Assembly: GCA_016788115.1 (NCBI GenBank)
Contig: JAEURR010000006.1
Span: 62,001 to 126,000 of the forward strand
Source: Chthonomonas sp.
Lineage (GTDB): Bacteria > Armatimonadota > Fimbriimonadia > Fimbriimonadales > Fimbriimonadaceae
Direction: 5' to 3'
DNA: 64,000 bases
Shown here in pieces: positions 39,407-62,746 of the stretch (the stretch's first letter is position 1; every line of letters begins with the position of its first letter). Both the position numbers and the translations under genes were made by a program. The notes under the pieces are model-generated. The model saw nothing but the letters and a program-made list of their open reading frames with translations. It did not search any database and had not been told where the DNA came from.

Positions 39407-40201
39407 ATGGCAAACATTCGACTCGCCGCGATCGATATGGATGGCACTGCGCTCCGCGGTGACCGGTCATTGCACCCCGAGAACATCGCGGCGATCCACC
39501 GGGCAACGGAACGCGGGATCCAAGTCGCACTCGCAAGCGGGCGGATGTTTCTCAGCTTGCGCAGGTTCGCCGACGACATTGGGCTTGAGATGCCCATCGT
39601 CAGCAGCAACGGTGCCTACGTAGTGGACGACAGCGCGCAGATTGTCCTGAACGCGACCGTGTCCGATTCCATCGCACTGGCAATCCTCGACTATTGCGAG
39701 TCCCACCAACTGCATGTGAACCTCTATACTGGCTCGGGGATCGCCTGTGTTCGCGAGACGAGTTGGCTGGTCACCTACGCCGAGCGAGTGCAGAACTTCT
39801 CTCCTGAGCCGCTGGGTCTGGATGCGTGCCGAGAGATCTCGCCGAACAAGATGCTCATCTTCGCTGAGCCGGAGGACCTCGATACCCACGGCCGAACCCT
39901 GCGCGACATGGTTCCACCCGGGCTTGGAACCTGGGTGCGATCCGAGCCCGACTTTTTGGAACTGCTCCCACCGGATGTCACCAAAGGCTACGGCCTGAGC
40001 CGGCTCGCCGCGCATATGGACGTCCCACCGGTCGAGGTCGCGGCGATCGGCGACTACCTCAACGACCTGGAGATGTTGGAGTGGGCGGGGACGGCAGCGG
40101 CCGTAGCCAATGCCCACCCAAAGATTCTTGAGACTGCGGGGGTGGTTTATCCGTCCAATGAAGAGGCGGGGGTAGCGGCCTTCCTTGACGCGCTAGGTTA
40201 A
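39407..40201 (+). CDS. HAD superfamily sugar-phosphatase, Cof type
   Basis: A 264-residue cytoplasmic HAD-IIB (Cof-like) phosphohydrolase. Motif I is AIDMDGTAL (nucleophile Asp in DMDGT), motif II is VALASGRMF, and motif III lies near VTKGYGLSRLAAHM. Motif IV is AAIGDYLNDLEML, with ND where many members have GDNxND. Substrates in this family include flavin and sugar phosphates and cannot be told apart here. It precedes the exported trio by 42 bases. Confidence 0.9.
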   Translation: MANIRLAAIDMDGTALRGDRSLHPENIAAIHRATERGIQVALASGRMFLSLRRFADDIGLEMPIVSSNGAYVVDDSAQIVLNATVSDSIALAILDYCESHQLHVNLYTGSGIACVRETSWLVTYAERVQNFSPEPLGLDACREISPNKMLIFAEPEDLDTHGRTLRDMVPPGLGTWVRSEPDFLELLPPDVTKGYGLSRLAAHMDVPPVEVAAIGDYLNDLEMLEWAGTAAAVANAHPKILETAGVVYPSNEEAGVAAFLDALG

Positions 40202-40243: not shown

Positions 40244-41215
40244 ATGAAAGGAATTCGAATTGCGTTGATGTGTGCCGTACTGATTGGGACACAAGCCTTT
40301 GCCCAGTTCTCGGTGACAAGCCCCAACAGTGGTGACACTCTCGGCAAGACCAACACCATCCGATTTCTGATCGAGAACATTACGAGCCAAGCGCGCGTGG
40401 TGGCGACGGCGACCAACAACGCCAAGCCGAACATCCGCATCTCGACCGAAGCGCTTTTGGATCCAGACGCCGACAAGCGCATCCTCGGCACGCTCGACCT
40501 CAATTTTGATGAAACCACTGAATCCGGAACGTACACCCTGCAGGTGCAGTATCTGACTCAGGGCGTGGTCCGCGACACGCGCACCATCACGAACCTGACC
40601 ATTGATACTAAGAATCCGAAGTTCCGTAACGTAACTCCGCGCAGCGGCTCGTTCGTCTCGGTTCTCGTCCCTGTCCGCGCCGAAGTCGAAGAGCCGGGGC
40701 TTGATCGCTGGAGAGTGCGCGTGAACGATCGCGACATCCCGAACAATTCTGGCTCGACGACCGATATCGCTGTGGATTGGACTACGAGCAACATCGAGAA
40801 CGATGGTCCCGCCTCGATCACCATTAAGGTCGATGACAAGGCCCGAAACAGCGCGACGAAGACGATCAACGTGACCCTGGACCGGGTTTCGCCTTCGAGC
40901 CAGGTGAAGAGCCCCGCAGGCGTGAGCTACCGTCCCACGTCGATCATCCCTGTGGTGATCGAGATTGCCGACCAATACGAAGGTTCGGTGATCGCAGGTG
41001 GAGTCAACGCAAGCCTGTACACCATGGATGGTCAGTACATCGGCCGAGTCGCACGTCGTTCCGCGACGAACTCAGGCGCAACTTTGCGGTGGGTTGGCCG
41101 GATCAAAGGAACCAGCCGCCTCCCGAAACAGTTTAAGATGGTCGTTACCGCGATTGACCGAGCTGGGAATCGCGCGGTGGACCAGACCGTAACCGTCAAC
41201 ATCTCCGGAAGGTAA
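40244..41215 (+). CDS. Secreted Ig-like-domain protein, first gene of the PorV/caspase-fold trio
   Basis: A 323-residue protein with a clear signal peptide (MKGIRIALMCAVLIGTQAFA, cleavage about residue 20). The rest looks like three beta-sandwich modules (about 22-125, 126-215, 216-323). Phrases such as ITIKVDDKARNSATKTINVTL and MVVTAIDRAGNRAVDQTVTV are the C-terminal strands typical of bacterial Ig-like repeats. No catalytic motif, cell-wall anchor or T9SS-type C-terminal domain is evident. It is followed by the PorV-like gene after 29 bases. A surface or periplasmic adhesive or scaffold role is inferred. Confidence 0.65.
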   Translation: MKGIRIALMCAVLIGTQAFAQFSVTSPNSGDTLGKTNTIRFLIENITSQARVVATATNNAKPNIRISTEALLDPDADKRILGTLDLNFDETTESGTYTLQVQYLTQGVVRDTRTITNLTIDTKNPKFRNVTPRSGSFVSVLVPVRAEVEEPGLDRWRVRVNDRDIPNNSGSTTDIAVDWTTSNIENDGPASITIKVDDKARNSATKTINVTLDRVSPSSQVKSPAGVSYRPTSIIPVVIEIADQYEGSVIAGGVNASLYTMDGQYIGRVARRSATNSGATLRWVGRIKGTSRLPKQFKMVVTAIDRAGNRAVDQTVTVNISGR

Positions 41216-41244
41216 AGTATCCGCAAGCGAGGAAAAGCACCATC

Positions 41245-42405
41245 GTGACAATTGCAAGGAAGCTCATCAACGTAACGTTTATCACCGCTTTGGCCATGCC
41301 AGCAGCGTTTGCACAAATTCCCGATCTGCTCACTTCGTTCGATGCAGGCGGTCGCGCCATGGGCATGGGTGGCGGCATTGGAGTCTCAGGCTCGGATACG
41401 AACTCCACGCTCAGCAACCCAGCGGGCCTGGCCCACGCGCGAAAGAAGACGCTCTCAGTCGTCATCCGCAACATGCCTCAATCCAAGACTTCGCTGTCGA
41501 GCAGCTTCAATAACCCCGTCTTGACGACCAGATCGGAAGTAGGCGCAAACGGACTGAGCCATGCCGGTTTGACTCTGCCCCTGGGAACGGACGACAACCC
41601 GCGCGGCACGGTCGGCATCAGCTACACCATCGGTGGGTTCATTCGCGATAGCCGAACCAATAATGGCCAGCTTCCCATCGACGCTTCGAGCAGCGTCAAC
41701 AACTATAACGAACTTTTGAAGGCCAAGACTGAGTTCTTCACCATCGGCTATGGCTGGGGGAACGCGGACAACTCGCTCACACTGGGAGCGAGCCTCATCC
41801 TGGCCGGTCAGTACGTGCTGAACCGCCAATCGTACGACATCGTGCCCGCGGGAGGAACCGCGATCACCAATCCGCCGCTTGATCTGAGCAACCAAAGCTA
41901 CGGAGTTGGTGCGGTCGTCGGTGTCCAACTGATTCCAAAGGGCAGCCCCAACACCAGCATCGGTTTTGCCGTTCGAACCCCGATCAATATCTCGGGCAAC
42001 AAGAACACCGCAACCTACTACGACACGATCCCCGGCAAGATTTCTGTGGGCTTCGCCCATCGCAAGGATGGCCTTCGCGGTGGCCGCGACTTCGTGGTCT
42101 TCGGCGCACAGATCGACACGTTTTACAAGAATGAGCGCGGGGCCGCATTCGCACGGAAGCGTGCGGTGAACGTGGGTGCGGGTGCCGAGTACAACTTGCT
42201 TCGCGGCGCAGCGCGCATCCCCATTCGACTTGGCTTCACCGCCGTTCCTGAAGCGGGTAATGGATTCCGCGATCGCAACGCGCTCACTTTCGGGGTCGGA
42301 TATCGACCTTTCACTCGTCCTTACTCCATCGACCTGAACTTTGCGGCTCCCTCTTCCGGAAGCGGATTTGATGCCGCCCTGCAGCTTAACTACCGCCTGA
42401 AATAA
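41245..42405 (+). CDS. PorV/PorQ-like outer-membrane beta-barrel protein
   Basis: A 386-residue protein starting at GTG with a signal peptide ending AFAQ (about residue 23). The N-terminal phrase DAGGRAMGMGGGIGVSGSD, followed by SNPAGLA, is the signature of PorV/PorQ-family and FadL-like barrels. Alternating beta strands continue to the end, and the last strand ends LQLNYRLK. In Bacteroidota, PorV is the shuttle of the type IX secretion system; PorV-like proteins also occur in phyla without it, so type IX secretion is not demonstrated. Neighbours are the Ig-like gene and the pseudo-caspase gene 16 bases downstream. Confidence 0.7.
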   Translation: MTIARKLINVTFITALAMPAAFAQIPDLLTSFDAGGRAMGMGGGIGVSGSDTNSTLSNPAGLAHARKKTLSVVIRNMPQSKTSLSSSFNNPVLTTRSEVGANGLSHAGLTLPLGTDDNPRGTVGISYTIGGFIRDSRTNNGQLPIDASSSVNNYNELLKAKTEFFTIGYGWGNADNSLTLGASLILAGQYVLNRQSYDIVPAGGTAITNPPLDLSNQSYGVGAVVGVQLIPKGSPNTSIGFAVRTPINISGNKNTATYYDTIPGKISVGFAHRKDGLRGGRDFVVFGAQIDTFYKNERGAAFARKRAVNVGAGAEYNLLRGAARIPIRLGFTAVPEAGNGFRDRNALTFGVGYRPFTRPYSIDLNFAAPSSGSGFDAALQLNYRLK

Positions 42406-42421
42406 CAGAACCCAGCACCGT

Positions 42422-44071
42422 ATGAATACATCAAGGATGATCTCGATCGGGACTCTCATTGCCGCTTGCGCCCTCGCAAGCGCGCAAGCGTGGAGTGATT
42501 CATATGCTAAGGCGCTGGATGCGCTGAAGGCAGAGCGATTTGCCGTAGCTCGAACGCTGTTCAAGCAGGCTGCCAGCCTGCGTGCCGATGACTTCTCCGG
42601 TCCGACCTCCCTCAAGGGTGGATCGGTCACCGAGCCGAAGCTATGGCGCGATGGCGAAAGCTACTCGCCGAATTTCGCGGCCGCATACGCTGCGTACAAA
42701 CTCGCGCTGAAGACGGCCGATGATGCTGAGCGCAACGCGCTGTTGAGGGTCTGCACCGCCGAATTCAAGGCGCTCATGGCCAAGGGCCAGCGTAGCCGAG
42801 AGGTCTACTACTTCCAGAACGTGGTCCTGAACTTGCTTCGCGATGACGCAGAAGTCGCTGCGCTGGCGACTAATGCCGCCGCAAACGCGGACAAGATGAA
42901 CTGGAAGATCGACTCCGAACTATTGTCGATCGAAGAGCGCGCCGCAATCTTTGGAGTCGTCGCTCAGGGCAAGCCAAAGCCAGAGGCACCCAAGATTGTT
43001 GAGCCGAAGCCGGATCCAAAGCCCGCACCCAAGGAACCGGTTGCGAACAAGACCGAGGCCGCAAAGCCCGAGCCCAAGAAGCCGGAGCCAGAGAAGCCTG
43101 GACCTGCGCCGGTGAAGTCACCTGCTTCGACGGACGAAAAGCCAGTCGTCACAACGAACGAGCCCAAGAAGACCGAAGAACCCAAGAAGGAGACCGCCAA
43201 GGAGGAGCCCAAAACTCCCAAGAAACCGGTCAAGAATCCCACCACCGATGACGGACCGCCGGTCCTACCCGCCGATAGCAATAAGCCAAAGCCTGCTCCT
43301 GCAGGCACAGCGACAAACCCAGTCGTTTCCCGTGACGAGTACATGCTCGATGCGAACGGCAACGTCATTGCTCTGGACAACAAGTACGCCCTGATCATCG
43401 GGAATTCCGAATCGGCTATGGTCGGAGGGGGCCTGAGCTTCGCCGTAAACGACGCTCGGTACCTGGAGCAGAACCTCGTCAAGCTCGGTGGGTACAAGGC
43501 CGAGAACATCTTGGTCCTGACCGACGTGACCGCGCAAGAAATGCTTGAAGGCGCCGCATCGCTCGCTGAGCGGGTGCCGGAGAATGGCGTTGTGATGCTC
43601 TACTTCTCGGGAGTCGGCGTCAATCTTGAAGGCAAGGACTACCTCGGTGGAGTGGACACGGCTATGCCGACCGATCAGACGACGATGGTCGCCAAGACCG
43701 ATCTCTTCCAGCAGTTCATGAACCGCGGAGCCCGAATCTTCAGCTTCTTCCAGGTTAGCCGTCCGATGCTGGGTGGTCGGTACTTCGGCCAAGAGGCCCT
43801 TCAGCTTGGAGCGATCTCCCAGATGCAAGCCACGATCCCGGGCGGAGTCGTCTCCGGAGGAATGGTTGGCGGCGAACAGCTAGGCTTGTTCACCAGTGCG
43901 ATGGGCCGCGTACTCAACGAGTTCAAATCGAACCGAATCCCCATCCTAGAGTTCGGTTGGCAAGTCTTTGACAAGATTCGCGGTGGCGAACGGGGCAAGG
44001 GAGCCGGTGGCGCGACTCAGGTACCCACCCTGCCACAACTCACGAATCTGGCACCCGACTCGCGTTTCTAA
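42422..44071 (+). CDS. Exported caspase-fold protein with both catalytic residues replaced
   Basis: A 549-residue protein. Residues 1-22 are a signal peptide and about 25-180 a helical repeat-like region. About 183-312 form a long Lys/Pro/Glu linker, and about 318-510 match the peptidase C14 (caspase/metacaspase) fold. Fold marks are KYALIIGNSE, AVNDARYLEQNLVKLGGY and LYFSGVGV (where active members have YFSGHG). IFSFFQVSRP stands where DACxSG is expected, and GLFTSAMGRVL is last. The catalytic His is thus Val398 and the Cys position is Phe443, so it is predicted to be proteolytically inactive and more likely a binding or scaffold protein. It is third in the trio with the PorV-like barrel. Confidence 0.75.
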   Translation: MNTSRMISIGTLIAACALASAQAWSDSYAKALDALKAERFAVARTLFKQAASLRADDFSGPTSLKGGSVTEPKLWRDGESYSPNFAAAYAAYKLALKTADDAERNALLRVCTAEFKALMAKGQRSREVYYFQNVVLNLLRDDAEVAALATNAAANADKMNWKIDSELLSIEERAAIFGVVAQGKPKPEAPKIVEPKPDPKPAPKEPVANKTEAAKPEPKKPEPEKPGPAPVKSPASTDEKPVVTTNEPKKTEEPKKETAKEEPKTPKKPVKNPTTDDGPPVLPADSNKPKPAPAGTATNPVVSRDEYMLDANGNVIALDNKYALIIGNSESAMVGGGLSFAVNDARYLEQNLVKLGGYKAENILVLTDVTAQEMLEGAASLAERVPENGVVMLYFSGVGVNLEGKDYLGGVDTAMPTDQTTMVAKTDLFQQFMNRGARIFSFFQVSRPMLGGRYFGQEALQLGAISQMQATIPGGVVSGGMVGGEQLGLFTSAMGRVLNEFKSNRIPILEFGWQVFDKIRGGERGKGAGGATQVPTLPQLTNLAPDSRF

Positions 44072-44128: not shown

Positions 44129-44989
44129 ATGAACCGAACTGTGACCAACCAACCCGACCTGCATCCAGACGTTCTCGCGGTCTTTGAGAGCATCGCAGAG
44201 GAGTGGGGCGAGAAGTACTTCAGCGAATTTCTGCTGCCTTCATTGCAGACCCAGGGGCGCGCAGCCAGCGCGAAGCTCGAAGACGTCGTTGTTGCGCTCC
44301 AGAGCCCGTTTCGGTGCTTACACGCGTTCTTTGGACACTACGCGTTTGCCCGCCGAGGTCGCGACCGAGATGACCTCTCGCAGCTTGCCTGCCTCGCGCT
44401 GCGCCGTCTTGCGGCGGAGGACACCTTCACGGAGTTTCTGGAGCAATCCGACGGAGATGCGCTCTGGGACCAGTTCTGCCAGGTGTGCACCGAGCGAAAC
44501 CACAAGATTTCGGAGCAGCTCAATCGCGGTGTCATCGCAGGCATGCTGGAGCTCTCTCAAGAGATCTATCGCCTTGATGGGATCGGGAGTATCGCGGGCT
44601 GGGCGATCAAAGGAATTGAGAAGACGCGCCGAGTCGAGCCGCAATTCATGCGCATCGTCGATATCCGAGGCGTGGGCCCAAAAACCACCGCGACCTTCCT
44701 GCGCGATCTGATCGCGATGTTCGAGGTCGAGGATTCGCTCGAGAACGTCGACCGCCTCTACGTCCAGCCCATCGACCGTTGGACGCGCATGTTCGCTTAC
44801 GCCCTCATCGACGAGTTTGAGGACCGCGAGGCCGCGGATTGGGTCGTTGCAGGAAAGCTTTCGAAGTACTGCCGGTGGGCGAATGTCAGCGGCTTGCGGT
44901 TCAACATGGGAGCGACACTCTTCGGGACGAAACAGGTCCGGGATCCGCAGCGGTTCCACAGCTGCCTTGAGCGTCTCATCACGAACTAG
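44129..44989 (+). CDS. Helix-hairpin-helix protein, possibly DNA-glycosylase-like
   Basis: A 286-residue cytoplasmic, mostly helical protein. MRIVDIRGVGPKTTATFLRDL (about residues 171-191) matches the helix-hairpin-helix of HhH-GPD DNA glycosylases (LPGVGPKTA). About 20 residues on, PIDRWTRMFAYAL resembles the segment with the catalytic Asp (VDTHVxRV in EndoIII). No iron-sulphur cluster cysteines follow. A DNA-binding or base-excision function is a reasonable inference, but the N-terminal 150 residues match nothing I know. Its TAG overlaps the coaX stop on the other strand within CTAG. Confidence 0.5.
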   Translation: MNRTVTNQPDLHPDVLAVFESIAEEWGEKYFSEFLLPSLQTQGRAASAKLEDVVVALQSPFRCLHAFFGHYAFARRGRDRDDLSQLACLALRRLAAEDTFTEFLEQSDGDALWDQFCQVCTERNHKISEQLNRGVIAGMLELSQEIYRLDGIGSIAGWAIKGIEKTRRVEPQFMRIVDIRGVGPKTTATFLRDLIAMFEVEDSLENVDRLYVQPIDRWTRMFAYALIDEFEDREAADWVVAGKLSKYCRWANVSGLRFNMGATLFGTKQVRDPQRFHSCLERLITN

Positions 44990-47792: not shown

Positions 47793-49229
47793 CTACTTCG
47801 ACATGCTTTGGATCGCGGCCGAAGGATCAAACGTGTTGTACATGTTGAACTCTCCGACCGATCCCAAGTCCGTATTGTAGAGGTTGAGCGAGACGCGACC
47901 GTCGTGAATCTGACCCGCTCCCGAGCCCACTCCCTGGGTGCCGGGAATGATGTACTTGAAGTGGAACGTGCCGTCCGGATTGACGCGGCCAAAGCCGATC
48001 TTGACTTGCTCGGTCGGCTCGAACGATTCTGCTCGGAAGAACAGCTGCCCCTCGTTGCCGATCATTGCATAGGCGATGCCCGCATAGTGTGCGCTGCTGG
48101 ACATCAGCCCTGCGTAAAGGCCCGCGAACGGATTGGTCGCGCGGCGAAGGCGCCAGACGCCCGTTTCGATCTCGCCATCCCGCTCCGAGCGCCACGTACC
48201 GACACCCTTATCACCCAGGACGAAGCCCTGAATCTTCAGGTGGCCGTCGGCGCTTTCAGCGCGGACAATTCCAGTGCCGTCAATGCCGCCGAGGATGAGC
48301 TCAGTGCCGTATTCGTTCGGGTTGACCGTGCTACCGCCGCCACCGTTTCCTTCGCCATTGCCTTCGCCCGAGCCCTCACCATTGCCTAGGTCGCCGCCGG
48401 TAGTGCCTGCGCCGTCACCGCCGGCACCGCCGTCACCGCCGCCAACCGTTCCACCGCCGTCGCCCTCGCCTTCTCGGAAGTTCGTGACATCCCGGGCCTT
48501 GTCAAGTTCACGATCATTCAAGCCGATGATCGCAAACGTGCCGTCTTTGATGATTGCGGCGATCTTGCCGTGGCTGTCGCCCTCGAATCCACCGAGGTAG
48601 TTTCCGTCCGGAGAGAGTTGCTGGAGCAGTTCATTCTTGCGGCGCTCGCGCTCTTCCGGAGAGTGCTGATCTCCCGCACCGAAGTTCGGGCGGGCCTTCT
48701 CTTCCAGCTCGCGCCGGACGTCTTCGAGGTTGCCGGGCTTGAAGTCCGGGTCGGCCTGTCGACCTGCTTCCCACTGATCGAGGGCAGCATCACTAGCCAC
48801 CGTGGTGACAGGATCGCAATCGTTGTCTTCAGCCGACTTGCCCTGATCGTCCGTCGTGACGATCGTCGTCACAACCACCGATTCGCCGTCCCGCTCTGCC
48901 CGGGCCTCGACCTTGTAGTCGGTGTTGGGCTCGACGCCCTCCGTAAACTGGTAATCGCCATCGGCATCCGTGGTGGTCGTAGCAACCGTATCGCCCGTTT
49001 CAACGTCAATGAGGCTTACGTCCGCCGAGCTCACTGGCTCGTAATCATCAGCCCGCGAGGCAGCCGTGACCGCCGGCATCAAAACTGTTCCCTGGATCGC
49101 TGCGGGTAGCACGGTCGTCGAACCGGACGACGCACCTCCACCACCGCCGCAGCCCGCCAAGACGACCGCGGCAATCACTGCGACAAGACCTTTACGCCAC
49201 AACGGCGTTGCTGCATTCACAAAATTCAT
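47793..49229 (-). CDS. Surface lipoprotein with carboxypeptidase-regulatory-like domain and Gly-rich linker
   Basis: A 478-residue protein with a signal peptide and lipobox VLAGC (Cys27) followed by a Gly run. Residues about 42-125 resemble a carboxypeptidase-regulatory/SpaA-like beta-sandwich (ADVSLIDVETGDTVATTTTD-ADGDYQFT type). Residues about 150-250 are charged and helical. About 253-303 form a Gly/Asp/Glu-rich low-complexity linker. The C-terminal 170 residues are beta-rich with aromatic phrases (NPFAGLYAGLMSSSAHYAGI) but no family I know. It is probably anchored in the outer membrane. Function unknown. Confidence 0.65.
   Translation of the reverse strand: MNFVNAATPLWRKGLVAVIAAVVLAGCGGGGGASSGSTTVLPAAIQGTVLMPAVTAASRADDYEPVSSADVSLIDVETGDTVATTTTDADGDYQFTEGVEPNTDYKVEARAERDGESVVVTTIVTTDDQGKSAEDNDCDPVTTVASDAALDQWEAGRQADPDFKPGNLEDVRRELEEKARPNFGAGDQHSPEERERRKNELLQQLSPDGNYLGGFEGDSHGKIAAIIKDGTFAIIGLNDRELDKARDVTNFREGEGDGGGTVGGGDGGAGGDGAGTTGGDLGNGEGSGEGNGEGNGGGGSTVNPNEYGTELILGGIDGTGIVRAESADGHLKIQGFVLGDKGVGTWRSERDGEIETGVWRLRRATNPFAGLYAGLMSSSAHYAGIAYAMIGNEGQLFFRAESFEPTEQVKIGFGRVNPDGTFHFKYIIPGTQGVGSGAGQIHDGRVSLNLYNTDLGSVGEFNMYNTFDPSAAIQSMSK
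48322..48473 (-). repeat. Low-complexity Gly/Asp/Glu-coding stretch
   Basis: Repeated GGN triplets encode GDGGG, GAGGDG and GEGNGEG-type units inside the lipoprotein gene. Approximate bounds. Such tracts are prone to length change by slippage. Confidence 0.6.
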
Positions 49230-61999: not shown

Positions 62000-62746
62000 T
62001 CACTGATTGCCGGCGACTTCCAAGAATTTCTCAGATCGGGCCTTCTCGACCAGTTCTCGAATGCTCCCGGTTTGGGAGACCCGGAAATCCTCGGGTGTGC
62101 CCAAGAAGGCCAGCTCGCCGGACTCCAGGAACGCGATGCGGTCCGCGACGCGGAACACGCTCGATAGGTCGTGCGACACCACCACACTCGTCACTCCGAG
62201 GGCATCGCGCGTCTCCACGATCAACTGGTCGATGGCGTAGGCAGTAATGGGGTCGAGGCCGCTCGTGGGCTCGTCGTACAAGACGACTTCTGGATTCATC
62301 GCGAGGGCCCGGGCGAGTCCCACGCGTTTGCGCATGCCACCACTGAGTTCGCTCGGCATCAGGGTCTCGGAGCCCTCAAGATGCACAAGCTCTAGCATTG
62401 CCGCGACCATGCGGTCGATCTCGCTCGATTTGGCCCTCAGTTGGCGGCGCGAGCCGAAAGCGATGTTGTCGCGCACGTTCAGATAGTCGAACAGCGCGGC
62501 AGACTGGAAGACAAGCCCAAGCTTTTGGCGCGCGGCATCGGGATCCTTTCGGACGTCGATCCCGGAGACGTGGATACTCCCTTCCGTCGCCGTGATTAAG
62601 CCGGAAATGCAGCGCAAGAGCGTTGTCTTGCCCCCGCCCGAGCTGCCCATGATCGCGAGGATTTCGCCCTCTTGGACCTGTAGCGAGATGTCGGTCAGGA
62701 CTCGCTTCGGCCCGAACCAGTGCGACAGCTTCTCAACGCTGAGCAT
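62000..62746 (-). CDS. ABC transporter ATPase, MlaF-like (lipid transport)
   Basis: A 248-residue ATPase from ATG 62746. Walker A is GSSGGGKTT, signature LSGGMRKRVGLARAL, Walker B VVLYDEPTSGLDP and the switch His SHDLS. The FDYLNVRDNIAF and EIDRMVAAMLELVHLEGSETLMPSELSGGM phrases fit the MlaF/MkA group that energises phospholipid transport between the membranes. Partner MlaE, MlaD and MlaB genes are absent here; a membrane-protein fragment begins beyond the next gene. The start overlaps the upstream gene by 14 bases; a longer TTG form is possible. Confidence 0.85.
   Translation of the reverse strand: MLSVEKLSHWFGPKRVLTDISLQVQEGEILAIMGSSGGGKTTLLRCISGLITATEGSIHVSGIDVRKDPDAARQKLGLVFQSAALFDYLNVRDNIAFGSRRQLRAKSSEIDRMVAAMLELVHLEGSETLMPSELSGGMRKRVGLARALAMNPEVVLYDEPTSGLDPITAYAIDQLIVETRDALGVTSVVVSHDLSSVFRVADRIAFLESGELAFLGTPEDFRVSQTGSIRELVEKARSEKFLEVAGNQ

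Follow-up and report, generated by a model that had tools for sequence, protein, structure and literature searches.

What does an outer-membrane barrel resembling PorV do beside an immunoglobulin-like (Ig-like) protein and a caspase-fold protein that lacks its catalytic residues? The question is raised by three neighbouring genes, here called IG, BARREL and CASP, in the window analysed, a stretch of 64,000 nucleotides (positions 62,001 to 126,000 of contig JAEURR010000006.1, assembly GCA_016788115.1) from a Chthonomonas sp. of the phylum Armatimonadota, order Fimbriimonadales, family Fimbriimonadaceae. The genome measures 2.4 Mb and is 97% complete, with the window lying within its 480-kb contig. 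An earlier note on this DNA had compared the genes with the PorV-PorU pair of type IX secretion. Our analysis favours a different answer, to which we give about an even chance: the three genes form an operon of the cell envelope, passed on vertically within the Fimbriimonadales, and most likely build a single outer-membrane-associated assembly. The genes and their parts are as follows.

40244..41215, + strand: IG, predicted exported Ig-like protein, 323 aa (Big_13, E 3.6e-6)
40244..40306, + strand: N-terminus of IG resembling a signal peptide, residues ~1-21 (read from the sequence; the pattern recurs in homologues)
41245..42405, + strand: BARREL, predicted PorV-like / FadL-fold outer-membrane barrel, 386 aa, GTG start (PorV_fam, AlphaFold2, Foldseek)
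41326..41436, + strand: predicted N-terminal hatch of BARREL with NPA motif, residues 58-60 (helices in the model; conservation)
42422..44071, + strand: CASP, predicted exported pseudo-orthocaspase, 549 aa (PF00656, E 2.5e-10; AlphaFold2; MALT1 fold match)
42488..42952, + strand: N-terminal helical, TPR-like domain of CASP, residues ~23-177 (all-helix model; predicted local distance difference test, pLDDT, mostly >85)
42959..43345, + strand: disordered Lys/Pro/Glu-rich linker of CASP, residues ~180-308 (pLDDT <50 over ~180-305)
43373..43990, + strand: C14 caspase-fold domain of CASP, residues ~318-523 (PF00656, AlphaFold2, Foldseek)
43613..43615, + strand: Val398 codon of CASP, the catalytic His position, SGVG (alignment to SGHG of active C14 proteins)
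43754..43759, + strand: Val445-Ser446 codons of CASP, the catalytic Cys position (Ser446 in the Arg-anchored register)
44009..44068, + strand: conserved C-terminal tail of CASP, Q-x-PTLP ... D-x-R-F, with invariant final Phe549 (alignment A3)

The open reading frame coordinates agree with the earlier note on the three genes, their positions and their spacing of 29 bases between IG and BARREL and 16 bases between BARREL and CASP. Its signal peptides likewise correspond to signal-like N-termini, read from the sequence, in all three products and in their relatives. The survey of related genomes that it proposed finds the trio kept together, with the arrangement IG-BARREL-CASP retained in 39 of the 40 family loci fetched and in the further families f2, f4 and f5 of the Fimbriimonadales, the f5 CASP being cut by a contig end. 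At a threshold of E 1e-20, IG is found in 66 of 85 family genomes. Of the 70 family genomes with a completeness of 90% or more, 58 carry both IG and BARREL, the other 12 carry neither, and CASP occurs in all 58 as well as in two genomes devoid of the other two genes (G028 and G051). The trio is missing from the large-genome clade that includes G007. Ratios of non-synonymous to synonymous substitution (dN/dS) for five close pairs lie between 0.014 and 0.064 over all three genes, a range indicative of strong purifying selection; the genes are not decaying. Two genomes carry the trio and its downstream neighbour in the other orientation relative to coaX and glmM, so the trio moves as a block. On the whole, these sequence comparisons strongly support joint retention, joint loss and shared constraint of the three genes, and the very long joint inheritance of three neighbours suggests that they build a common cell-surface structure.

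CASP scores 40.9 bits against PF00656 (Peptidase_C14; cut-off 21.4), as expected of a C14/orthocaspase homologue, and its sequence profile matches MALT1 and metacaspases. The AlphaFold2 model, built from a 30-row alignment, has a pLDDT of 79, with 300 residues at or above 90. In it, an N-terminal domain made of helices is followed by a disordered linker and then by an alpha/beta domain. A few homologues give weak TPR matches, and the long Lys/Pro/Glu-rich linker characterises the genus and a handful of its neighbours; in most relatives the linker is short and different. The best structural match found with Foldseek is the MALT1 paracaspase (E 2.8e-10, target TM 0.73), caspases being matched as well; no gingipain or other C25 entry is present among the best 50 structural matches. 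The domain is accordingly modelled as a caspase fold of the C14/paracaspase type, in keeping with the peptidase C14-like domain of the earlier note, whose linker of about 130 residues is also recovered in the model.

The catalytic dyad is missing from this predicted fold. The position of the His of SGHG is occupied by Val398. Profile-profile alignment to active C14 proteins pairs DACR with Q444-V445-S446-R447, placing the catalytic Cys at Ser446, an alignment with the MALT1 profile instead sets it at Val445, and Phe443 falls opposite the hydrophobic residue preceding the Asp of DACR. Thus, the His position proposed in the earlier note stands, its placement of the Cys at Phe443 does not, and its conclusion that both residues are lost holds in either register. 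Of the 67 CASP homologues examined, which represent families f1, f2 and f4, none has His at position 398 or Cys at position 446, and 4 have Cys at position 445. As Gly397, Asp406, Arg447, Phe455 and Gly456 are invariant in this set, the fold has been kept throughout it while the dyad was lost. With Val398 and Ser446 (or Val445) in place of the dyad CASP does not have the residues of an active C14 protease and, judging from sequence, cannot be a His-Cys protease. Our comparisons thus yielded neither a fold lacking a caspase-like domain, nor a His and Cys elsewhere in the domain, nor a scattering of the trio among related genomes, any of which the earlier note had named as evidence against its reading.

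These features place CASP among the pseudo-orthocaspases, whose C14 p20 domain has no His-Cys dyad. The known ones are mostly from Alphaproteobacteria and Cyanobacteria and commonly carry Tyr/Ser instead (PMC6426788); the main text of that paper does not mention Armatimonadota. CASP shares with them a bacterial C14 domain, the lack of a recognised p10 partner and the replacement of His and Cys across a conserved clade, the dyad-less homologues forming one supported clade in which CASP dN/dS is 0.02-0.05. It differs from the known forms in its replacement pair, mostly Val or Ala with Asn or Ser, and also in its signal-like N-terminus, its N-terminal helical domain and its location beside a PorV-like barrel gene. 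Both in structure and by profile, the C14 domain is matched best by the paracaspase MALT1 (3v4o, 8v4x), which unlike CASP is an active eukaryotic protease.

The nearest sequence family of BARREL is PorV_fam (NF033709; E 4.4e-8), and the same applies to 27 of 28 close homologues (E <0.01) and to the trio barrels of other families, which score 31 to 57 bits. The search against PorV and PorQ profiles advised in the earlier note therefore upholds a PorV-like barrel, but BARREL reaches 33.1 bits against a curated cut-off of 90 bits and, lying below the PorV_fam, PorV and PorQ cut-offs alike, is not placed within the PorV/PorQ family. The sole PDB sequence match of the barrel profile (A4) is PorV (6h3i_F, E 0.014). 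The AlphaFold2 model of BARREL (pLDDT 82.5, predicted template modelling score 0.81) displays 14 long strands, with helices plugging it at the N-terminal end, and BARREL is predicted on this basis to be a 14-stranded FadL-fold barrel with an N-terminal hatch, an architecture that it would share with PorV and PorQ. Within the hatch, N58, P59 and A60 are each at least 90% conserved, and the hatch stretch aligns weakly with PorV 6h3i_F when the profile of distant trio barrels is used.

Such a fold could be that of an ordinary FadL-type channel for hydrophobic compounds, with the neighbouring genes auxiliary or unrelated, an interpretation that we consider improbable. The best structural matches of the model are indeed to the FadL family (Foldseek E 7.5e-10) and to TodX/TbuX-type channels, and the hatch contains the conserved NPA motif. 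On the other hand, the FadL and Toluene_X models are not matched by the window protein, PorV_fam remains the nearest family for nearly all of its relatives, and the perfect co-occurrence of BARREL with IG also speaks against this interpretation. Structures of the β-barrel assembly machinery (BAM) that contain BamG (9hiv_F, 9n2d_B, 9hjm_F) are also among the better fold matches. BamG, a FadL homologue of the Bacteroidota BAM complex, holds BamH through its extracellular loops (PMC12578637), a feature that BARREL may share by analogy with respect to an external partner. It is nevertheless very improbable, in our estimation, that BARREL is a BamG-like accessory of BAM with IG and CASP as an extracellular or periplasmic cap: the matches to BamG structures are weaker than those to FadL, the window protein gives no match to the BamG family model (NF053685) up to E 10, a barrel of family f28 giving merely a weak one, and the whole trio is missing from no fewer than 10 good family genomes. 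The trio is therefore not an essential part of BAM and, unlike BamG, is dispensable in some genera.

The third component, IG, matches Big_13, as do 24 of 25 IG homologues, in agreement with the Ig-like first protein of the earlier note. Taken together, the three proteins suggest a model in which BARREL would sit in the outer membrane as an anchor, and IG and CASP would be exported and dock on it. IG would then form an Ig-like rod or extended arm, and the caspase fold of CASP would serve as a non-catalytic subunit for binding, scaffolding or docking that might still hold a peptide or else the conserved tail at the C-terminus of CASP itself. By analogy, such an assembly might resemble PorV holding PorU and Ig-fold cargo, or BamG holding BamH, while not being a type IX system.

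Several observations weigh against this model of a single assembly. No route was found by which IG and CASP would cross the outer membrane, and both may stay in the periplasm. The neighbourhood of cheA, cheW, HAD, coaX and glmM is also syntenic within the family, so that the linkage of the trio there partly reflects general synteny, and a single deletion event could remove all three genes together. Moreover, an intact CASP occurs without IG or BARREL in two genera (G028; G051 and G052), implying that it also has a barrel-independent role. This last point leads to a serious, if doubtful, alternative, in which CASP, a pseudo-orthocaspase located in the periplasm or secreted, acts by itself or with different partners, and IG and BARREL form a separate pair that merely shares its transcript. 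The genera g8 and g19 retain a full-length CASP without the other two genes, and in g19 this CASP lies directly between the HAD gene and the gene that elsewhere follows the trio; IG and BARREL co-occur without exception in the 70 good genomes; and in family f5 (L139, L140) the gene after a second copy of the barrel encodes a protein of 1077 aa that lacks a C14 match and has nothing but the N-terminal domain in common with CASP. This alternative has to contend with the presence of CASP in 58 of the 58 good genomes that have IG and BARREL, and with the adjacency of the three genes across four families.

The interpretation built on the earlier note, namely a surface-attachment complex that either equals the type IX pair PorV-PorU or precedes it in ancestry, has several points in its favour. 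PorV tethers PorU and the C-terminal domains (CTDs) of cargo proteins (PMC5562754), and these CTDs are reported to have an Ig-like fold (PMC11285876); with its PorV-like barrel, Ig-like domain and caspase fold, the trio thus has a counterpart for each of the three kinds of fold in the PorV system, and CASP shares with the PorU sortase export and a caspase fold, both predicted for CASP, as well as the pairing with a PorV-like barrel. We regard the interpretation as unlikely. The best match to SprA in the genome covers about 90 of 2319 positions at 36.7 bits against a cut-off of 200, and hence gives no type IX translocon; matches of this kind were rejected as SprA, being a short segment within open frames of 620-1200 aa, and they are the same across the phylum. 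GldM/PorM has no match in the genome, and the type A CTD cargo model (TIGR04183) has one, at E 0.045, which is below its cut-off and is paralleled in several unrelated control genomes. The C25 peptidase search gave no match in the genome, and likewise none in any control genome. Since SprA, GldM, CTD and C25 yielded nothing above cut-off, the searches do not support assigning the trio to type IX secretion. The earlier note's remark that no type IX core genes are visible extends genome-wide for SprA, GldM and CTD, with the proviso that the C25 search was silent in the controls too, and its caution over the PorV/PorU parallel proves justified. In addition, the caspase domain is C14 rather than C25, BARREL falls short of the PorV_fam cut-off, and the His/Cys sortase reaction of PorU is impossible for CASP, as it has no catalytic residues and no CTD was found.

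One of the partial SprA matches belongs to a protein of 867 aa in the same genome that begins with a signal-like N-terminus and has the character of an outer-membrane protein (contig C5, ~268645-271248; L155:2645-5248), in which segment 197-289 corresponds to SprA positions 592-686 (E 3.5e-9). Similar partial matches are present in 10 of 11 other Armatimonadota genomes tested. Going by sequence, a single segment of SprA may have a small relative in this protein.

Loci outside the order bear on the supposed ancestry. Two genomes of the distant Armatimonadota family f12 (L144, L145) encode a long Ig protein, then a related barrel and then an open frame of 1378-1520 aa whose C-terminal C14 domain contains AGHG and DACR with His and Cys intact; a third f12 locus (L143) is cut by a contig end. 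The shared gene order and intact dyad would suit a PorV-PorU equivalent. In the C14 tree, the pseudo-caspases form one clade (support 100/99) and the f12 pair sits on a long branch. Forcing the f12 caspases together with the CASP clade was not rejected (p-AU 0.33), so that the tree neither supports nor rejects a common ancestry, and the N-terminal homology between CASP and the third f12 gene is weak (hhalign probability 10%). It is plausible that an active ancestor lost its dyad on the way to CASP; the tree offers no basis for the word "ancestral" in the earlier note, as it cannot place the f12 caspases. A more specific scenario, which we consider improbable, is a type-IX-independent display system in which the barrel and the caspase-fold subunit hold IG at the surface, a former protease comparable to that of f12 having become a pure scaffold in the Fimbriimonadales. 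In 20 loci of other Armatimonadota families with PorV-like barrels, the profiles and motif used detected no Ig or caspase-fold neighbour.

The same genome encodes, on contig C3 (L154:11625-14627), a separate caspase of 1000 aa, in which a signal-like N-terminus and weak TPR matches are combined with an intact dyad (YFSGHG and CDACRSG). Its gene is divergent from one for an SLH-domain porin-like protein, which accounts for a second PorV_fam-like match near this active caspase and was rejected as a counterpart of BARREL. A supposed barrel-caspase fusion in G001 (L041/L078) was discarded as an assembly gap of N. The record titled "Methanoregulaceae archaeon SJ84" (L085) carries a bacterial trio locus very close to that of Fimbriimonadaceae L091 and is apparently a mislabelled or mixed metagenome-assembled genome.

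The trio is embedded in a longer same-strand run, flanked by two genes whose membership in the module is only putative.

39407..40201, + strand: HAD hydrolase/phosphatase (PF08282, E 1.7e-57), 42 bases upstream of IG
44129..44989, + strand: conserved protein of an unnamed family, 57 bases downstream of CASP

The HAD gene, found directly upstream of the trio in 25 of the 40 relatives' loci, is probably on the same transcript; of the CASP-only loci L177, L178 and L045, from two genera, the first two have it directly before CASP. The downstream gene is present in 24 of the 40 loci, and Pfam and NCBIfam searches with its product gave no match. Between 39200 and 45200 no terminator-like site was seen on the + strand, and promoter-like matches were not above expectation. 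Elsewhere in the window (47793-49229, - strand) lies a gene for a 478-aa lipoprotein-like protein with VLAGCGGG near its N-terminus, an SdrD_B-like domain and a Gly-rich stretch.

Searches of the literature for PorV with Armatimonadetes, or for type IX with caspase, PorV and phyla, returned no paper, and within the partial coverage of the literature no published description was found of an order-wide clade of signal-bearing pseudo-orthocaspases whose genes stand beside those for a PorV-like barrel and an Ig-like protein. The occurrence of a PorV-like barrel with a caspase fold in a genome without detected type IX machinery implies that this pairing need not denote type IX secretion. If the f12 loci do share ancestry with the trio, the intact and lost dyads in the same gene order would provide a natural comparison of enzyme and pseudo-enzyme. 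Pseudo-orthocaspases have so far come mainly from phototrophic lineages and been tied to photosynthesis; CASP represents a signal-bearing clade of them, fixed across one order of Armatimonadota and tied to an outer-membrane barrel, which points to another use of the fold, one related to the envelope.

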